Source of the DNA: Deltaproteobacteria bacterium
GTDB lineage: Bacteria; Desulfobacterota; Syntrophia; Syntrophales; JAFGIO01
DNA: 39,856 bases
Assembly: GCA_016929555.1 (NCBI GenBank)
Contig: JAFGIO010000065.1
Span: 1 to 39,856, forward strand
Reading direction: 5' to 3'
Below, in pieces: positions 2,144-26,759 of the stretch. The translations under genes and the position numbers were made by a program. Numbering within the stretch: position 1 is the first letter of the stretch; every line of letters begins with the position of its first letter. Under the pieces are notes generated by a model. The model saw nothing but the letters and a program-made list of their open reading frames with translations, was not told the origin of the DNA and searched no databases.

Positions 2144-3718
2144 ATGAAGGTCAGCAGCGTAAGCGAAATGAGGGCCATGGACCGATACGCCATCGAAACG
2201 ATCGGCATACCCGAGGAAGTGCTTATGGAAAATGCCGGGATGGCGGCCTCGTTGGTCCTGGCGCGGGAAGTGGGCATCCGGGCCGGCAGGATCTCCGTCA
2301 TCTGTGGAGCGGGCAACAACGGCGGTGATGGATTTGTCGTTGCCAGAAATATCCATGCCGCCGGAGGCGATGCCCGCGTTTTCATCCTCGGCGGGCTTGA
2401 CAGGTTTCGGGGCGCCGCGAAAAGGAATCTCGACATCATCAAGAAACTTCCCCTGGAAATCAAAGAGGTTGCAGCGGCAGCAGCCATCAGGAACGACCTG
2501 TACCACAGCCGGGCGATCGTGGATGCCCTCTTCGGAACGGGCCTCGACCGGGAGGTCCAGGGTCTCCATCGCGAGGTGATCGATCTAATCAACGGGAGCG
2601 GCCGGAAGGTTCTCAGCCTCGACATCCCGTCGGGCGTCAACGGCGACACGGGCGAGGTCATGGGCGCGGCGGTCAAGGCCGATTGCACCGTCACCTTCGG
2701 ACTTCCCAAGGTCGGCAACCTGCTCTATCCCGGCTTCGATCTGGGCGGGAAACTTTTCGTTACCCACATCACCTTCCCCCCGTCGCTTCATGACAGCGAC
2801 TCCCTTACGGTTCAGGTAAACGATGCGGTGCCCCTTCCTCGGAGGATTCCCACGGCCCACAAGGGACGGATGGGTGACGTCCTCTTCATCGCCGGAGCGG
2901 CCAGCTATTACGGCGCTCCCCTTTTTGCCGCCTTGTCCTTTCTGAAGGCCGGCGGGGGGTACTCCCGGTTGGCAGCGCCGAAATCAGTGGTCCCCGTCGT
3001 CGCCCAGATGGGCGGCGAGATCGTCTTTCATCCTCAAAAGGAAACCCGTCAGGGGAGTCTCGCCGCCTCGAGCCGCACGGGGCTGCTCGACTTGGCCCGG
3101 ATCGCGGACATGGTGGTGCTGGGACCCGGCCTCTCCCTCCAGGAGGAGACCCAGCAACTCGTCAGGGATCTGGCCTGTGCCATTGACAAGCCTTTGCTGT
3201 TGGATGGAGACGGCATAACGGCCGTTTCTGGCTGTGAAGATCTCGTCAGGCAGCGGCATGCGCCGACGATCCTGACACCGCACCCCGGCGAGATGGCGAG
3301 AATGACGGGATGCAGCATTTCCGAGATCGGTCGCCGGAAGGTTGCCATTCTCAAGGAAACGGCCCGCCGGTGGAACGCCTTCGTCGTTCTGAAGGGCGCC
3401 CACTCCCTGATCGGCACCCCGGACGAGCGCATCTTCATCAACCTGAGCGGAAATCCGGGGATGGCGACGGCGGGTTCCGGGGATGTCCTAACCGGCACCG
3501 TGGCGGCAATGAGGGGTTTGGGGCTGGACCTGGAGGGGGCCGTGAGGCAGGGCGTTTTTATTCATGGCCTGGCGGGGGATCTGGCGGCGGAGGAGAAAGG
3601 CGAGGACGGGATCACGGCACGGGATATCCTCGATTATCTGCCCGGAGCCCTCAAAGCCGTCCGTGAGGGCGGTGCCGAGGCTGGGTGGAATAGATGCGAA
3701 ATTCCTTGTCTCCTTTAA
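2144..3718 (+). CDS. nnr: Bifunctional NAD(P)HX epimerase/dehydratase
   Basis: A 524-residue fusion of two NAD(P)HX repair activities, as in E. coli YjeF. Residues about 1-215 form the epimerase domain (YjeF_N), with RAMDRYAIE, ENAG and VICGAGNNGGDGFVVAR. The C-terminal part is the ribokinase-like ADP/ATP-dependent dehydratase, with ILTPHPGEMARM, VVLKGAHSLIG and the nucleotide-site NPGMATAGSGDVLTG. It converts damaged hydrated NAD(P)H back to NAD(P)H in the cytoplasm. ATG at 2144 is chosen because it is preceded by AGGGTGA and starts the conserved epimerase sequence. An in-frame GTG lies nine bases upstream. Probably in an operon with the flavoprotein before it. Confidence 0.93.
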   Translation: MKVSSVSEMRAMDRYAIETIGIPEEVLMENAGMAASLVLAREVGIRAGRISVICGAGNNGGDGFVVARNIHAAGGDARVFILGGLDRFRGAAKRNLDIIKKLPLEIKEVAAAAAIRNDLYHSRAIVDALFGTGLDREVQGLHREVIDLINGSGRKVLSLDIPSGVNGDTGEVMGAAVKADCTVTFGLPKVGNLLYPGFDLGGKLFVTHITFPPSLHDSDSLTVQVNDAVPLPRRIPTAHKGRMGDVLFIAGAASYYGAPLFAALSFLKAGGGYSRLAAPKSVVPVVAQMGGEIVFHPQKETRQGSLAASSRTGLLDLARIADMVVLGPGLSLQEETQQLVRDLACAIDKPLLLDGDGITAVSGCEDLVRQRHAPTILTPHPGEMARMTGCSISEIGRRKVAILKETARRWNAFVVLKGAHSLIGTPDERIFINLSGNPGMATAGSGDVLTGTVAAMRGLGLDLEGAVRQGVFIHGLAGDLAAEEKGEDGITARDILDYLPGALKAVREGGAEAGWNRCEIPCLL

Positions 3719-3735
3719 TCAAGAGGAAATTGAAA

Positions 3736-4710
3736 TTAGATCCTTCTTTCGATGATGTAGTCAGAGATGGCGATCAGTGCGGCCTTCGCGTCGGAGTCCT
3801 CGAAATCCCCGAGGATGCCCTTCCCCTCTTCGATGAAGGAACGGGCTTTTTCAAGGGCGTAGGCGATGCCGCCGTAGCGGCTGATGAGCGCCATGATGCC
3901 GCCGGTCGCCTGGTCTTGCTGCGCCGACGTTCCCAGGAACCGCTTGACCAGTTCCTTCTCTTCCCGGGAACATCGCTTCAGCGCGTGGATGAGGGGAAGC
4001 GTGATCTTTCCTTCCTCCAGATCCTTACCGATGACCTTCCCGAATTCCTCCTCCTTGGCCACATAATCGAGGGTATCGTCGGTGATCTGGAAGGCGGAAC
4101 CGATGCGCATGCCGAACCGGGTCAGCGCCTCTACCTGCGTGGCGGGGGCGTCGGCGAGGATGGCGCCGATGGCGCAGGCGGCGGCGATCAGGATGGAGGT
4201 CTTTTTCTCGATGAGAGAGAGATACTCCCTTTCGCCGATCCCGATGTCGCCGGATCGGGAAAGCTGGAACAGTTCCCCCTCCGCCATGGTGTTCGTCGTC
4301 GTGCACATGAGCTTCATGACGGCAAGGCTGCCGTCGTCGGTCATGAGCTTGAAGGATTTCGAGACGAGGAAATCGCCGACCAGGACGCTGGCCGAATTGC
4401 CCCAGATGTTGTTGGCCGATGCCTTGCCTCGCCGGGTCTCTGCATGATCCACGACGTCGTCGTGCAGCAGGGTGGCCGTGTGAATGAGCTCGATCATGGC
4501 GGACATGGGATAGCGGCGCTCGCCTCTGTAGCCGCAGAGATCGGAGGTCGCCAGCAGCAGGAGGGGTCTGAAACGCTTTCCGCCGCTGCCGACGAGGTGA
4601 TCGACGATCTTGACGATGAGATCCACATCGGTCGAGAGGTGGCGTTTCATGCAGTCCTCAACACGCCTGATGTCCTCTCCATAATAGCGAAAAACGTCCT
4701 GTATCCGCAT
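3736..4710 (-). CDS. Trans-polyprenyl diphosphate synthase (IspB-like)
   Basis: A 324-residue all-alpha prenyltransferase that adds isopentenyl diphosphate units to an allylic primer. Both aspartate-rich motifs are intact: LLHDDVVDHAETRRG (first DDxxD) and QITDDTLDYVAKEEEFGK (second). GSGGKRFRPLLLL is the IPP-binding region. The sequence resembles octaprenyl/heptaprenyl synthases making quinone side chains rather than the short-chain IspA encoded at 25845. It runs convergent with nnr (17 bases between stops) and is driven by a near-consensus promoter at 4743-4771. Chain length cannot be read from sequence with certainty. Confidence 0.9.
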   Translation of the reverse strand: MRIQDVFRYYGEDIRRVEDCMKRHLSTDVDLIVKIVDHLVGSGGKRFRPLLLLATSDLCGYRGERRYPMSAMIELIHTATLLHDDVVDHAETRRGKASANNIWGNSASVLVGDFLVSKSFKLMTDDGSLAVMKLMCTTTNTMAEGELFQLSRSGDIGIGEREYLSLIEKKTSILIAAACAIGAILADAPATQVEALTRFGMRIGSAFQITDDTLDYVAKEEEFGKVIGKDLEEGKITLPLIHALKRCSREEKELVKRFLGTSAQQDQATGGIMALISRYGGIAYALEKARSFIEEGKGILGDFEDSDAKAALIAISDYIIERRI

Positions 4711-9957: not shown

Positions 9958-10545
9958 GTGTACGCCCGGCATGGGCGTGAACTTATAAGGTGAAAGTTCC
10001 CTGTATGTGAATCCTGTCGATGATTTAATCATTGACACAAGTACTAGCCGAAGGCAAGGGCGGAACCGTGAGGACCGTCCGAAGGAAGCCGGAGTGCAAA
10101 GCTGTGAGTGAAGCCTGTCCCGGACCTGATCCGGGAAACAGAAACAGCATACAAGGCTGAGTCTCCGGACAAGTCAGCACAACATGACAAAGCCCTGGAT
10201 TCGGGAGATACGGTAAATGCTGCGTTTGCATAGTCACAGTTCACGTTCTTATCCGGGGAGACCTGCCCGGTTGGCAACTCCGTAGAGAGTGGCACCCGTC
10301 ATGGCAACATGCCGTGGAACCGGACAGGAGTCAGCAGAGGCCATAGTAGGCGCAGGACGTTGCCAAAAGGCTGCATGGCAACTGGAAACGAGCCCGGGGA
10401 AGAGAAAGACCGGGAGGTCTCATCCCGCTGAAGGACCCAACCCAAAGTAGAGAATTCGCCCATATGTGCTCCGAAACGTGATGAACCCGAACGGGTGAGC
10501 GGAAAAGGTCGGGCGCGACGTAAGGGAAAACGCATGCTCAAGGAT
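9958..10545 (+). mobile_element. 5' fragment of a group II intron (no reverse transcriptase, no domain V)
   Basis: It begins GTGTACGCCCGGCATGGGCG, a 5' end close to the group II GUGYG start followed by the first domain I stem. Characteristic group II segments follow: AAGGTGAAAGTTCCC, CTAGCCGAAGGCAAGG, GGCAACTCCGTAGAGAGTGG and CCGTGGAACCGGACAGGAGT, the last usually near the start of the intron-encoded protein. No reverse transcriptase frame and no domain V/VI hairpin are found before the MazF gene at 10740, so it is a 3'-truncated remnant that cannot splice. It lies antisense to the cassette genes. The exact 3' limit is uncertain. Short open frames in this segment are intron RNA, not genes. 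Confidence 0.72.
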
Positions 10546-20698: not shown

Positions 20699-21286
20699 TC
20701 AATGGGGCATCTCGTCCAGCATCTTCTTTACGAGCTTCTTGGCGACGTCGTTCAGGTTCGGTTTGATGAGGATGTATTTTTCCGTAATGTGATGCCCCGC
20801 CTTCCAGAGAATCTTCCCGGTGCCGGCATCGACCATCTTGACAGCCAGGCCGACCTTTGCCACCTTGTCGCCGTCTTCGATGGTATAGTTCCAGTAGTCC
20901 ACCTGGAAGACCAAAAAGGCGTCGATCTTGGAGACATCGCCGATCTTTTGGCTCAGTTCGGGATCGGAATAATTGACCGTCTTGAACTTGGCCAGATAGT
21001 CCAGGAGGACCTTTCTGTACTCCTCGCTGGACATCAGTTGTCCGGTGATCGTATCGGATGCCACCACATCGCTGAACCACTTCTTATCGATCAGGACGCC
21101 GGCAATGATCTGATCGATGGTTCCCCTTGCCTCTTCGTAAGTTCCCACATCAACGGGCAGTACACCCACAGCTTTGGGGTGGAAATCCTTTGCCTCCGGA
21201 GCCACCTGGGAATAGCGCAGCCCGCCGCATGCCGTGATCATAAGCAACAGGAGAGCCGCCCCTGAAAGGATATGCCATCTTTTCAT
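20699..21286 (-). CDS. Lipoprotein of unknown function
   Basis: 195 residues with a signal peptide and lipobox: a hydrophobic ILSGAALLLLMITAC with Cys20 as the lipidated residue. The mature part (AVGVLPVDVGTYEEARGTIDQIIAGVLIDKKWF ... AFLVFQVDYWNYTIEDGDKVAKVGLAVKMVDAGTGKILWKAGH) resembles the CsgG/TolB-N-like fold of periplasmic or outer-membrane lipoproteins in which a variable-name gene product is turned into an expression of metabolic state; I do not recognise a named family. GGAGG lies ten bases before ATG 21286. It starts 27 bases after the ispH/ubiA stop. Confidence 0.7.
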   Translation of the reverse strand: MKRWHILSGAALLLLMITACGGLRYSQVAPEAKDFHPKAVGVLPVDVGTYEEARGTIDQIIAGVLIDKKWFSDVVASDTITGQLMSSEEYRKVLLDYLAKFKTVNYSDPELSQKIGDVSKIDAFLVFQVDYWNYTIEDGDKVAKVGLAVKMVDAGTGKILWKAGHHITEKYILIKPNLNDVAKKLVKKMLDEMPH

Positions 21287-21312: not shown

Positions 21313-23052
21313 TCAGGCGACCGCGTGTGCCGCCGCGATCCACAATACCGTACAGGTGCCGGCAATCACATAGGCGGTTTCCAGCAGGCCTTCCAAGACA
21401 ACCCCTGAAAACTGCGCTCTTCTACCATAAAGTTTGAAACAAATCCATACATAAAATAGGGAACCCATAAGGGCGATGCTCAAGGAAGAAGTCCATCCGG
21501 CCGGATAGGAAACCGTGAGCAGGACGGCCAGCAGAACGGCGATGACCTTCAGGAGGGAATGGGTGTGTTCTTCCCCGATGAGAACGGGAATCGTTTCCTG
21601 GCCGATGAAGCGGTCGCTCTGAATATCGAGCATGTCCGATAGGGCCGATCGGATGAACACAAGGGAAAAGATGAATAAAAATGATACGATCAGGGAAGGG
21701 TTCGGGTGCAGGTCCGTCTCGATCCAGGGCAGAACGGCCGTCACAACGGCCCAGGCCAGGGCCATGGAAACATTTTTTGAACCGGGCAGATCCCGGAGAC
21801 TTTTGAAGCGCGTTCCTCCCGGCAGTATGTTGGCATTGTAGAGGACGCCGAGCAGAGATATCGTGAAGAGCAGGGCGAAGGAAGCGGTGCCGAGGGCGGC
21901 TGCCAGGACCAGGGCCAGCATCAGCGACAGCAGTGCGACGGCAACATAGGGTTTCTCGTGGCGGAGATAGGATTCCTCCCGGTAGGTCCCGATGCTGCTG
22001 GCCTTCCGGTTGATGAATCGGTTCAGGGTGTGCATTGCGAATACATAGGAAGCGGCTATGGCGATATTCATGGGGAGAACGCCGAGATTTTGAAGGATCG
22101 TTCCCGCCAGCGACAGGCAGCCGGCGCCGAAAGTCGAATAGAGATCCGTACGGACAGCAAAGGTCCAAATGTCTAAAAATCCATGCCATTTTCTCTTTTT
22201 TTCGTTCTGGCGCAGGGCAAGGGTATTGACGACGCGATCGATGATCCAGTTCGGCGTCGAGGCGCCTGCGGAAACACCCACCTTCTCATAGGGCAGGGGC
22301 AAGGCCTCCAGGTCGTCGGCCGTCTCGATGTGAAAGGTCGGGGTTCCCTGACGTTCCGAAAGGATTGCCAGCCGCCTCGTGTTGGCGCTGTTCTTTCCCC
22401 CCACGATGAAGAGGGCTTCCATGGCGGCGGCCAGTTCCTTGACTTCCGCCTGCCGCTGTTCCGTGGAATCGCAGATGGTCTGAAAGACGACGGCGCCGGG
22501 ATAGCGCTCCCGGATTCTGGCGGCGATGCTTTCGTACTCCTGGAGGTTCTGTGTCGTCTGGGCCACGACGCAAACCTTTCGAAGTTCGGGGAGCTTCTCC
22601 ACGTCTTCTGTGCACCCGATGACGAATCCCCTGCCCTGGGCGTATCCCAGCAGGCCGTTCACCTCGGGGTGATCGCCGTCGCCTGCGATCAAAATCGTGT
22701 GATCGCTGAGGGCATGTTTCTTGATGATGGCCTGGACATGGGCCACCTTGGGACAGGTTGCATCGACGATCCGAAGGCCCCGTTCCTTTATCTTTTGTCT
22801 TTCGGCGGGCGAGATGCCGTGGGCGCGAATGATCATGGTGGCGCCGGGCTCGCAGGCATCCATCTTTTCGACATCGCCGATGGGAATGATCCCTCTCTTT
22901 TCGAGCAGTTCAACCGTTTGCGGATTGTGGATGAGGGGACCGTAGGTGTAGATGTTTTCCTTTCCCTTGTGCCTGGCCAAATCGAGCACCATATCGACGG
23001 CCCTTCTTACGCCCATGCAGAATCCCGCGGTCCTGGCCAACCTGACGACCAT
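21313..23052 (-). CDS. ispH: IspH fused to a UbiA-like membrane domain
   Basis: 579 residues. Residues about 1-280 are a complete IspH (HMBPP reductase) with the three cluster cysteines in GFCMGVRRAVD, DATCPKVAHVQ and TICDSTEQRQ, plus VGGKNSANTRRL and SAGASTPNWII. It makes IPP and DMAPP, the last step of the MEP pathway. From about 300 on there are seven to nine hydrophobic segments typical of UbiA prenyltransferases. The second aspartate motif SDMLDIQSDRFIGQETIP is intact, but the first (NDxxD) reads NRFINRKAS, without aspartates. ATG 23052 is chosen at the conserved start. Lies downstream of tlyA in an isoprenoid operon. IspH is certain; activity of the membrane part is not. Confidence 0.92.
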   Translation of the reverse strand: MVVRLARTAGFCMGVRRAVDMVLDLARHKGKENIYTYGPLIHNPQTVELLEKRGIIPIGDVEKMDACEPGATMIIRAHGISPAERQKIKERGLRIVDATCPKVAHVQAIIKKHALSDHTILIAGDGDHPEVNGLLGYAQGRGFVIGCTEDVEKLPELRKVCVVAQTTQNLQEYESIAARIRERYPGAVVFQTICDSTEQRQAEVKELAAAMEALFIVGGKNSANTRRLAILSERQGTPTFHIETADDLEALPLPYEKVGVSAGASTPNWIIDRVVNTLALRQNEKKRKWHGFLDIWTFAVRTDLYSTFGAGCLSLAGTILQNLGVLPMNIAIAASYVFAMHTLNRFINRKASSIGTYREESYLRHEKPYVAVALLSLMLALVLAAALGTASFALLFTISLLGVLYNANILPGGTRFKSLRDLPGSKNVSMALAWAVVTAVLPWIETDLHPNPSLIVSFLFIFSLVFIRSALSDMLDIQSDRFIGQETIPVLIGEEHTHSLLKVIAVLLAVLLTVSYPAGWTSSLSIALMGSLFYVWICFKLYGRRAQFSGVVLEGLLETAYVIAGTCTVLWIAAAHAVA

Positions 23053-23117: not shown

Positions 23118-23861
23118 TCATTTCCTCGCATAGAGAAAATATTCCCTGTTTCCCGCAGGACCCGCAAGGGCGGATTCGCTGGTTCCAAGGACCTCGATGG
23201 CCCTTGCCCTGCAGAAATCTTCGATCTCGGCGATCACGGTCCTGTGAACCCCGGGATCCCTGACGACGCCGTTCTTTCCCACGAACTCCCGTCCCGCCTC
23301 GAATTGTGGTTTGATGAGGGCGAGCAGGGCGCCTCCTTCCCTCAGGGATTTGAGAACAGGGGGGATGACGAGCTTCAGGGAGATGAAGGAGGTGTCTATG
23401 GTTGCCATGTCGACGGGACCGTTAAGCTGCCTGCCGTCGAAGTACCGGATATTCGTCCGTTCGATACAGACGACGCGCGGGTCGGTGCGGAGCTTCCAGG
23501 CCAACTGTCCGTAACCGACATCGAGGGCATAAACCCGGACCGCTCCCTCCTGGAGGAGGCAGTCGGTGAATCCGCCCGTCGAGGCCCCGACATCGAGGCA
23601 GACGAGCCCCCCGACCGCGATGCCGAAGGCGGACAGGGCTCCTTTGAGCTTCAGGCCGCCGCGGCTCACGTAGGGATTGTTTTCGCTCCGTATACGGATC
23701 GATGCTCCGGGATCGACAAGCGTGCCGGCCTTGTCCTGAATCACATCGTCGACGAGAACGGCGCCTGCGAGAATGAGGGCTCTGGCCCGTTCTCGGCTTG
23801 CCGCGATCCCCTGTTCGGCCAGCAACCTGTCCAGCCGTACCCTTTTCTCCGTGGCGGCCAT
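23118..23861 (-). CDS. tlyA: TlyA-family rRNA 2'-O-methyltransferase
   Basis: 247 residues. An N-terminal S4 RNA-binding domain (RLDRLLAEQGIAASRERARALILAGAVLVDD) is followed by YVSRGGLKLKGAL and an FtsJ-type methyltransferase with the SAM motif CLDVGASTGGFTDCLLQEGA. TlyA methylates ribosomal RNA riboses; some members are called haemolysins for historical reasons. It starts five bases after the dxs stop, within the xseA-to-ispH operon, a common bacterial arrangement. Confidence 0.93.
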   Translation of the reverse strand: MAATEKRVRLDRLLAEQGIAASRERARALILAGAVLVDDVIQDKAGTLVDPGASIRIRSENNPYVSRGGLKLKGALSAFGIAVGGLVCLDVGASTGGFTDCLLQEGAVRVYALDVGYGQLAWKLRTDPRVVCIERTNIRYFDGRQLNGPVDMATIDTSFISLKLVIPPVLKSLREGGALLALIKPQFEAGREFVGKNGVVRDPGVHRTVIAEIEDFCRARAIEVLGTSESALAGPAGNREYFLYARK

Positions 23862-23865
23862 GGTT

Positions 23866-25785
23866 TCAGCCCCCGGCCGGTCCGGCGTTTCCTTCCATCA
23901 TGTGCCGCGCCGCCTCCGCAATACCCTCGCTGTCGATGCCCGACATCTTCCTCAGTTGGGCCTGCGTGGCATGCTCCATGAATTGGTCCTTTATGCCCAG
24001 CCTCCTGATCTTGACGTCGGCAATTCCCGCTTCTTCGAAAAGCTCCAGAACGGCGCTGCCGAAGCCCCCCATCAGGACATTCTCCTCGACGACGATCATC
24101 CGCTTGAACCTCGATGCCGCCTCGCACAGCAGTGGCCGGTCGAGAGGCTTGACGAAGCGGGCGTTGATGACCGTTGCGTCGATGCCGCCTTCAATCAGAA
24201 TCTGCGCCGCCGTCAGGGCGGGATGAACGGTCGATCCTATGGCCACGATGGCCAGGTCGGGACCGACCCTCAGGATCTCTCCCTTGCCGATGTCAAGCCG
24301 TTGGGGCTCGGCGTCGATGGGAACGCCCAATCCCCTGCCTCGGGGGTATCGGAGGGAGGCGGGCCGTCCTGCCTCCACGGCGGTCTTGAGCATGTGCTGG
24401 AGCTCGTTTTCGTCCTTGGGCGCCATGACGATCAGGTTGGGGATAGACCGTAGATAGGAGAAATCAAAGAGGCCGTGGTGGGTGGGTCCGTCGTCGCCGA
24501 CGAATCCTCCTCGGTCCATTGCAAGAACGACGGGAAGGTTCTGGAGGCAGACGTCATGGATGACCTGGTCGTAAGCCCGCTGCATGAAGGTCGAATAGAT
24601 GGCCACGACGGGAATAAAAGAGGCCGTCGCCAGACCCGCCGCAAAGGTCACGCCGTGCTGCTCCGCGATACCGACATCGTAAAACCGCTCCGGGAATTCC
24701 TTGGCGAAGGCGTCGAGGCCCGTCCCGTTGCCCATGGCGGCGGTGATGGTAACGATCCGGGAATTCTCACGGGCCAGTTTCGCTATGGTTCTGCCGAACA
24801 TCTCCGTGTAGGAGGGAGGAAGGGTCGTTTCCCCAGCCGAAAGGGGCAGGCCCGTATTGACCTCGAAGGGCGCCACGCCGTGGAACCTCAGGGGTTCCGC
24901 TTCGGCAGGTCTGTAGCCCTTGCCCTTTTTTGTAACGATATGGACGAGAACCGGCCGCTGGAGCTTCTTGATGTTTTCCAATGTCTTGATGAGATGGTCC
25001 AGACGATGCCCCTCCAGGGGCCCCACGTAGGTGAATCCCAGTTCCTCGAAAAGGGCGCCCGGAACGATCAGCGATTTCAGGGATTCTTCGATCTGCCTCG
25101 TGACACGGACCATGCCCTCGCCGATGGAAGGGATTGTCTTGAGAAAACTCTTGACCTCCGCCTTCAATTTGGTAACCGTCTGGCCGGTCATCAGGCGGTT
25201 CAAATAGGAGGAAAGGGCGCCCACATTGGCGGAAATGGACATCTCGTTGTCGTTGAGAATGATGATCAGTCCTTTCTTGCGGTCCCCGGCCCAGTTGAGC
25301 CCCTCGAAGGCCATACCCGCCGTCATGGAGCCGTCGCCGATGACGGCGATCACCCTGTGGTTTTCGTTCAGAAGGCACCTGGATTCGGCCAGGCCTGCGG
25401 CTGCCGATATGGAAGTGCCGCTGTGGCCGCTGTTGAAGACGTCGTAAGGGCTCTCTTCTTTTCTGGGGAAACCGCTGAGACCTCCTTTCTGGCGGAGGGT
25501 ATGGAACCGGTCTTTCCGGCCCGTGATGATCTTGTGGGTATAGGCCTGGTGTCCAACATCCCAGATGAGTTTGTCCCGGGGCGTATCGAAAACGTAGTGG
25601 ATGGCCAGCGTCAATTCCACGGTACCCAGGGAGGATGCCAGGTGGCCGCCGCTGCGGGAGACCGTTTCGATGATCATCTCACGGATTTCCTCGGCCAGCA
25701 CCGTAAGCGAATTCAGATCAAGCTTCCGGATGTCTTCGGGATCGTTGACCTTGTCTAAAATGCGTTCCTTGCTTATTTCTGTCAT
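23866..25785 (-). CDS. dxs: 1-deoxy-D-xylulose-5-phosphate synthase
   Basis: 639 residues, a thiamine diphosphate enzyme joining pyruvate and glyceraldehyde 3-phosphate in the first step of the MEP pathway. [13 protein letters not shown], the ThDP motif [18 protein letters not shown] ... NDNEMSIS, the [14 protein letters not shown] region and the C-terminal transketolase domain ([19 protein letters not shown]) are intact. ATG 25785 is chosen; the open frame extends to overlap ispA but the added residues are not conserved. It follows ispA in the operon. Confidence 0.96.
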
Positions 25786-25844
25786 TGTAAAAACCTGTCG
25801 GCCTTCGTTCCCAGGAGGCGCGCCTGGGAAAGGAGCCGGATTGT

Positions 25845-26759
25845 TCATGTCTTTCTTTCCTTTATATACCGGGCGATCATCCGCAAGGGATCGGCCCGGT
25901 CATCGAGGTTCTCTATCGCGGCCAGGGCAAGCTCGACGAGTTCGGAGGCCCTGAGGCGGGCGGCTTCCAATCCCAGCAAACCCGGATAGGTCAGTTTGCC
26001 CCGGCAGGCGTCGCTGCCCGTCTTCTTTCCCAGCAGGGCGCTGTCTCCCTCCACATTGAGGATGTCGTCGGCGATTTGAAAGGCAAGGCCGATATGATCG
26101 CCGTAAGTGGAAAGGGCGGACAGGCCGTCAGGCCCGGCGCCTCTCAGCAGGGCGCCCACCCGCAGGGAGGCCCGGATCAGGGACGCCGTCTTTCGGGTGT
26201 GGATGTACAGAAGGGTTTCCAGATCGCCGGCGGTGCCCTCCGCCTTGATATCGGCTACCTGGCCGCCCACCATCCCCAGATATCCGGCAGCCTCGGCGAC
26301 GGTGCGGATCGCTTCCAGAAGCCTTTCCGGCGGCACGTCCCGCATGAGTTCTCGGCGCGCCATCAGGTGGAAGGCTTCCGTAAGCAGGGCATCGCCGGCA
26401 AGGATGGCGATGTCCTCTCCGAACACCCTGTGGCTCGTAGGCCGTCCCCGCCGGTAGTCATCGTTGTCCATGGCGGGGAGGTCGTCATGGATCAAGGAGT
26501 AGGTGTGGATGAGCTCCAGGGCGCAGGCAGCGGGCAGCAGGGAAGAAGCCTCCGCATTTCCCTCTGTAGCTTCGGCCGCAGCCAAACAGAGTATGGGTCG
26601 GAGACGCTTTCCCCCGGCGAAGAGGCTGTGGCGGCAGGCCTGGAAGATCACCGGCGGATAGGTTCTCTCATCGGGGAGGCAGCGCTCCAGGGCCTCATCG
26701 ATCAATCTTTTCTTTTCGAAAAGATAGGTTTCCAGGGCGGTTGCGGCCCTTGCGGTCAT
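25845..26759 (-). CDS. ispA: Farnesyl/geranyl diphosphate synthase (IspA-like)
   Basis: 304 residues. First aspartate motif [12 protein letters not shown] with the two-residue insertion typical of bacterial short-chain synthases, second motif FQIADDILN, and GGKRLRPIL for IPP. It produces C15 (or C20) prenyl diphosphates from DMAPP and IPP supplied by Dxs and IspH in the same operon. It overlaps xseB by four bases. The IspB-like enzyme at 3736 would extend its product. Confidence 0.93.

Follow-up and report, generated by a model that had tools for sequence, protein, structure and literature searches.

The ispH-ubiA Fusion Gene

What does a membrane domain of the UbiA prenyltransferase fold do when it is attached to IspH, the enzyme that makes isopentenyl and dimethylallyl diphosphate (IPP/DMAPP), and when its first aspartate motif does not read NDxxD? 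This question is raised by a gene of a Syntrophales bacterium (Desulfobacterota; assembly GCA_016929555.1, contig JAFGIO010000065.1). The window referred to here is the whole stretch of DNA that was analysed, with a length of 39,856 nucleotides. A preliminary description of this DNA, made from the letters alone, had reported an IspH fused to a UbiA-like domain at 21313-23052. The fusion is confirmed by Pfam matches to LYTB and UbiA and by Foldseek matches for both halves. The coordinates are right as well, but the strand is the minus strand, on which the interval forms a single frame of 579 codons; the plus-strand translation is interrupted by stops. The gene and its two halves are located as follows.

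21313..23052, minus strand: ispH-ubiA fusion gene, 579 aa, ATG at 23052, stop codon in the lowest three bases (translation, Pfam, structure model)
22219..23046, minus strand: IspH (LytB) domain, residues 3-278 (Pfam, invariant columns, own-genome search, Foldseek to 3dnf and 3ke8)
21328..22146, minus strand: UbiA-fold membrane domain, about residues 303-575 (Pfam 311-541, DSSP helices of the model, Foldseek to 4tq3, 4od5 and 7bpu)

The N-terminal half matches Pfam LYTB over residues 3-278 (E 6e-88) and the NCBIfam IspH model TIGR00216 with 284 bits, against a cut-off of 187.85. In 99 aligned fusions, the cluster cysteines C12, C100 and C194 are invariant, and so are the substrate residues H42, H128, E130, T166/T167, S222, N224 and S265. 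The substrate-binding residues of Escherichia coli IspH are H41, H124, E126, T167, S225, N227 and S269. Judged by its invariant cysteines and substrate residues, this half is predicted to be an HMBPP reductase that makes IPP/DMAPP. A search of the bacterium's own genome found the fusion as the sole IspH, together with three further UbiA genes that resemble decaprenyl-phosphate phosphoribosyltransferase (with NDLHD), MenA and EboC. In the organisms checked for it, the fusion is the sole IspH and so bears on an essential pathway.

The C-terminal half matches Pfam UbiA over residues 311-541 (E 2.5e-10; 40.5 bits against a curated cut-off of 34.2). In NCBIfam, it matches prenyltransferase models only below their cut-offs, with NF010117/PRK13591 as the top model.

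Predicted Structure and Fold Relatives

AlphaFold2 produced one confident two-domain model of the whole protein (mean pLDDT 92.1, pTM 0.88; alignment of 99 rows), in which the C-terminal half is entirely helical. In Foldseek, the N-terminal half of the model matches IspH structures, including 3dnf and 3ke8. The C-terminal half has a fold in common with archaeal UbiA proteins, namely those of A. fulgidus (4tq3) and A. pernix (4od5) and the DGGGP synthase of M. jannaschii (6m31/7bpu), at E-values of 1e-4 to 4e-4 and a Foldseek probability of 1.00. Unlike the fusion, 4tq3, 4od5 and 7bpu are unfused and have a canonical NDxxDxxxD motif I, and the identity is 12-17%. A domain profile of 25 rows found no match among the PDB sequences; a profile of 56 rows and the fold comparison did, and HMMER with the 56-row profile aligned motif II of the fusion family with motif II of DGGGP synthase.

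Distribution and Age of the Fusion

The fusion is near-universal in the window's order, where hardly any genome with an IspH is without it. Among 60 genomes of this order, an end-to-end match of the whole protein was observed in nearly all genomes with a match, and the named relatives belong to the Syntrophales/Syntrophaceae. In the class, a domain profile located the C-terminal domain in 134 of 149 sampled genomes, mostly within an open frame of about 570-690 aa, which speaks against the recent fusion artefact, with split genes in close relatives, that the preliminary description had considered. Across the phylum, the domain is present in 147 of 395 evenly drawn genomes (E <= 1e-8). The best-scoring 150 IspH places listed for the phylum comprise 75 frames of at least 550 aa, 75 of less than 430 aa and none between, a split that is not an unbiased share since the places were picked by score. 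At the loci examined in the first survey, IspH was attached wherever the C-terminal domain was present. The domain also occurs in 18 of 119 Planctomycetota genomes (E <= 2e-43), in frames of 569-664 aa, and the three IspH cysteines are present in the Planctomycetota fusions examined. Broken or stop-containing frames were seen in a few relatives (G001, G041, G390 and others). The identity of the domain tracks that of IspH (r 0.86) but is lower, with a mean of 33% versus 50%.

This survey across order, class, phylum and Planctomycetota indicates that the fusion is ancient and has been retained. An artefact of assembly or of recent fusion is practically impossible, as full-length fusions occur in two phyla and, within this one, in dozens of families.

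Among the 15 class genomes without the domain, only two have an IspH match, of which one is a fragment (G609) and the other a standalone IspH (G011). The latter represents a natural loss of the domain: a 286-aa IspH stands alone at 3675-4535 on the minus strand of its locus (L150, G011:C31:8000-15500), flanked by the TlyA-type and lipoprotein-like genes, with dxs also kept and the gene order as in the window. Because this genome dropped the domain, IspH can do without it, and the product of the domain is dispensable at least there.

Second IspH copies were observed in two genomes. G191 has IspH genes at C153:20915-21748 and C172:15729-16562, one of them standalone (frame of 373 aa) and one fused (580 aa), and this pair offers a natural test for a division of labour. 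In G004, which also carries the fusion, a second IspH match (C32:101277-102086; 37% identical) lies inside an open frame of 912 aa.

Residue Pattern of the UbiA-like Domain

A survey of such fusions and their first motif had been proposed in the preliminary description. It now covers 114 distinct fused proteins, the window protein included, to whose alignment the residue counts below refer. Three elements of the domain are central to the comparison.

22009..22032, minus strand: altered motif I, residues 341-348 HTLNRFIN; family HxxNRxx[D/N], canonical NDxxD (114-protein alignment)
21610..21636, minus strand: motif II, residues 473-481 DMLDIQSDR, intact (alignment; HMMER alignment to DGGGP synthase motif II)
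21775..21795, minus strand: basic loop, residues 420-426 RDLPGSK (alignment)

The window protein reads NRFIN at residues 344-348, as had been noticed, in place of NDxxD. This is not a defect of this gene. Position 345, which corresponds to the first D of NDxxD, has D or E in none of the 114 proteins (R in 72, H in 12, N in 12, Y in 6, others in the remainder), and R345 is invariant within the window's order. The preceding N344 is present in 105/114. A second NDxxD-like motif elsewhere in the domain, which had been considered as well, does not occur either: [ND]DxxD is found nowhere in the C-terminal domain of the 114 fused proteins.

Position 348 behaves differently. It is D in 68 of the 114 fusions and N in 23, with S, T, A, G, E, I or L in the remainder. 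In the window's order, D is found in 13 of 40 and N in 18, the position being mostly N, S, T, A or G; across most of the phylum, D348 is still present (53 of 67). Near-basal rows (L017, L024-L027, L031) have D, so the change from D to N arose inside the order. A parsimony count gives 12 changes between D and not-D over the whole tree, which indicates that position 348 is not essential family-wide. On the aligned sequences, the loss in motif I is thus read as two separate events, one at position 345 and one at position 348.

The rest of the domain is strongly conserved at particular places. Motif II is intact, as first described, and its D480 (D476xxxD480) is present in 112/114. In the basic loop, K or R occupies position 420 in 101/114 (R420 in the window protein) and position 426 in 114/114. 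H341 and G493 are found in 114/114 of the aligned fusions, although a few Planctomycetota fusions have Q, S or Y in place of H341, and Y405 and W434 are found in 113/114 and 112/114, respectively. The top-conserved positions of the domain are H341, G493, Y405, P423, W434, D480, G484, T487, P442, R468, L313, E486, N344, G402 and K426, and the signature of the domain can be written as HxxN[R]..., K/R420...K426, W434, R468 and (D/E)xxDxQxDxxxGxET. Among 275 positions, 348 ranks 78th in conservation and 352 ranks 224th. The rank of position 348 indicates that the constraint is selective and not general. The strongest conservation appears to fall on polar or aromatic residues of a pocket type and not on hydrophobic surface.

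This pattern bears on the view that the domain is a membrane anchor only, in which the UbiA fold merely holds IspH at the membrane. Membrane localisation of IspH has been called a likely role of the domain by Rao et al. (PMC4746011), and the IspH of G011 manages without the domain. However, an anchor needs hydrophobic helices and not H341, K/R426, Y405, W434 and D480 at 112 to 114 of 114 proteins, so the anchor option of the preliminary description is disfavoured by the conservation pattern and is quite improbable as the whole explanation.

Metal Ligands and Standalone NRxxD Relatives

The consequences of the altered motif can be judged against the archaeal enzyme AfUbiA, whose motif I is N68-D69-x-x-D72-x-x-x-D76 and whose Mg2+ ligands are N68 and D72 of motif I and D198 and D202 of motif II (PMC4106721). 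GPP binding is abolished when alanine replaces N68, D72, R22 or K146, and is weakened 45-fold by alanine at D198 and 21-fold by alanine at D202 (PMC4106721). Since the first Asp of NDxxD is no Mg2+ ligand in AfUbiA, D345R by itself leaves the metal site in place. Position 303, which aligns with AfUbiA R22, is D in the window protein and N or D in most fusions, and K146 aligns with position 420, an equivalence taken from the HMMER alignment. By alignment, the R22-like residue is absent from the fused domain, and the D76-like (352) and D72-like (348) positions vary. The consequential change would be that from D348 to N, at a ligand position, together with the loss of the R22-like and D76-like residues. 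As two of the four residues R22, N68, D72 and K146 are absent by alignment in the window protein, ordinary prenyl diphosphate binding is doubtful.

Standalone UbiA proteins with NRxxDxxxD are found in the same order (L191-L197) and in Planctomycetota (L175-L182). Like the fusions, they have an Asn before the Arg and a DxxDxxxD motif II, with R345, Y405, K426 and D480 each in 14/14. Unlike the fusions, they have D348 and D352 in 14/14 each and the R22-like Arg in 9/9 of those covering that position, and they lack H341, R468 and E486. In the tree, they are grouped together with support 83 and are separate from the fused domains. NF010117/PRK13591 is their weak best or near-best NCBIfam match, no model among those scanned in NCBIfam being above its cut-off, and one of them aligns in phmmer with chlorophyll synthase, with the Arg opposite an Asp. 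The listed neighbours of their genes gave no functional lead. Because these standalone proteins carry NRxxDxxxD with the other ligands, NRxxD is a wider variant, and to speak of a lost first motif mixes two events.

The same relatives suggest a further explanation, namely a prenyltransferase of ordinary chemistry that tolerates Arg345 and binds its second Mg2+ through N344 and D/N348 or through different residues. The standalone NRxxDxxxD proteins with an intact motif II imply that Arg is compatible with an otherwise complete site, in line with the Mg2+ of AfUbiA being held by N68 and D72 and not by the first D. Against this, the fused domain, unlike the standalone UbiAs, is without the R22-like and D76-like residues, and D348 is kept by only a minority of the window's order. 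Ordinary chemistry is accordingly improbable, though a little less so than a mere anchor.

Gene Neighbourhood

The fusion lies among the following genes in the window.

23118..23861, minus strand: S4 and FtsJ domain gene (TlyA-type), upstream and co-directional (Pfam)
23866..25848, minus strand: dxs, first enzyme of the MEP pathway (Pfam)
25845..26759, minus strand: ispA-type polyprenyl (farnesyl-class) diphosphate synthase (Pfam; NCBIfam NF045485 above cut-off)
20699..21280 (or to 21343), minus strand: ORF with a lipoprotein-like start (MKRWHILSG...ITACGG), downstream of the fusion (ORF list, neighbour clusters)

In the window's order, the fusion clusters with ispA, dxs and the TlyA-type gene, and the lipoprotein-like ORF, for which a Pfam search returned no family, is kept beside it. 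Outside the order the neighbours vary, being Dus and a family 2 glycosyltransferase, ParA/ParB, glycyl-tRNA synthetase, or RadC and a deaminase. The proximity of ispA and dxs fits isoprenoid supply and names no acceptor.

A co-directional gene for a family 2 glycosyltransferase immediately follows the fusion at 14 or more loci from several families (L095, L097, L101-L104, L115, L123, L125, L127, L129, L130, L136 and L137), and at some of them the two genes overlap by a few bases. It gives no substrate inference, because the NCBIfam models that it matches best are those of generic polysaccharide enzymes, with scores far short of the cut-offs. Elsewhere in the window, at 10062-10371 on the plus strand, Rfam gives two group II intron domain matches, RF02001 and RF01998, in a region poor in long ORFs.

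Proposed Function of the Domain

Taken together, the domain is probably a remodelled UbiA that still binds a ligand, as suggested by its conservation, and that is probably catalytic. In the proposed mechanism, the UbiA-fold domain would tether IspH to the cytoplasmic side of the membrane and would bind an isoprenoid phosphate, which it would probably transfer in a prenyltransferase reaction of a non-canonical type. The active site appears to keep the Tyr of the catalytic pocket, the lysine/arginine loop and, of the diphosphate/Mg2+ site, the half formed by motif II. From the motif I half, the R22-like residue and D76 would have disappeared, as would D72 in most of the window's order, and an invariant His341 and an Arg345 that is invariant in the order would have been gained. 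Binding in the cytoplasmic pocket would thus use the motif II Asp, the basic loop 420-426, Y405, W434 and H341, with a weakened motif I half.

A regulatory or scaffolding pseudoenzyme could be built from the same parts. It would transfer nothing; with IPP/DMAPP or some longer prenyl phosphate bound in the half site of motif II, it would adjust or channel the output of IspH at the membrane. The loss of the R22-like, D76-like and often the D72-like residues while the remaining pocket is conserved is what such a protein might look like, and a regulator would suit a fusion that is the sole IspH where checked and that persists through nearly the whole order. On the other hand, catalysis by EcMenA needs the equivalents of the motif II Asp and of N344, which the fusions keep almost throughout (112/114 and 105/114) and which pseudoenzymes usually lose, and most of the phylum (53/67) still has D348. 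A pseudoenzyme is therefore unlikely on balance, but it is a more serious contender than either the anchor or ordinary chemistry.

Preference is given, at roughly even probability and ahead of all these rivals, to a non-canonical transferase that would act on an isoprenoid phosphate. Points against it are the two absent residues on which GPP binding by AfUbiA depends, the loss of the domain in G011, the 12 changes at position 348 and the different gene neighbours outside the order. A more specific version can be put forward only tentatively: the domain may be an unrecognised UbiA-fold transferase that uses isoprenoid phosphate delivered by the attached IspH and makes an undescribed membrane isoprenoid or lipid carrier in Desulfobacterota and Planctomycetota. 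If the domain is catalytic, the terminal MEP step is physically coupled to a membrane isoprenoid reaction across much of an anaerobic phylum, the conserved signature points to residues for mutation, and the published reading of two intact DXXXD motifs may need correcting. Were it a pseudoenzyme instead, IspH would contain its own isoprenoid feedback, a rare arrangement.

Comparison with Known IspH Fusions

The architecture itself is not new, since this type of fusion was described by Rao et al. in 2015 (PMC4746011). That study reported 47 IspH-UbiA fusions as 'Rosetta stone' proteins, with the domain termed PT_UbiA_5, found them in sulfate reducers only and noted poor expression (PMC4746011). 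It was proposed that the domain localises IspH or consumes its product, and two DXXXD repeats were stated, with the counted residues left unspecified (PMC4746011). Of these repeats, the second is present in the fusion studied here, as D476xxxD480 of motif II. Besides this study and a paper citing it, nothing on IspH-UbiA was found in the literature searched. New here are the family-wide absence of Asp345, the split between positions 345 and 348, the presence of NRxxD in related standalone UbiAs, a signature of conserved residues, and a distribution widened to Syntrophales and Planctomycetota.

Other fusions of IspH with a long C-terminal partner are known: the IspH-RPS1 proteins of Firmicutes and Fusobacteria (Rao et al. 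2015) share this layout, but their partner consists of ribosomal protein S1 repeats, which are soluble and unrelated to UbiA. The IspH-UbiA fusions of Rao et al. are much closer to the protein studied here: they come from anaerobic deltaproteobacterial lineages and likewise have, after IspH, a C-terminal UbiA-like membrane domain of similar size. They differ in being described with two DXXXD repeats and with sulfate reducers as their only hosts, whereas the present family, which reaches into Syntrophales and Planctomycetota, has neither Asp345 nor [ND]DxxD in any of its 114 aligned members.
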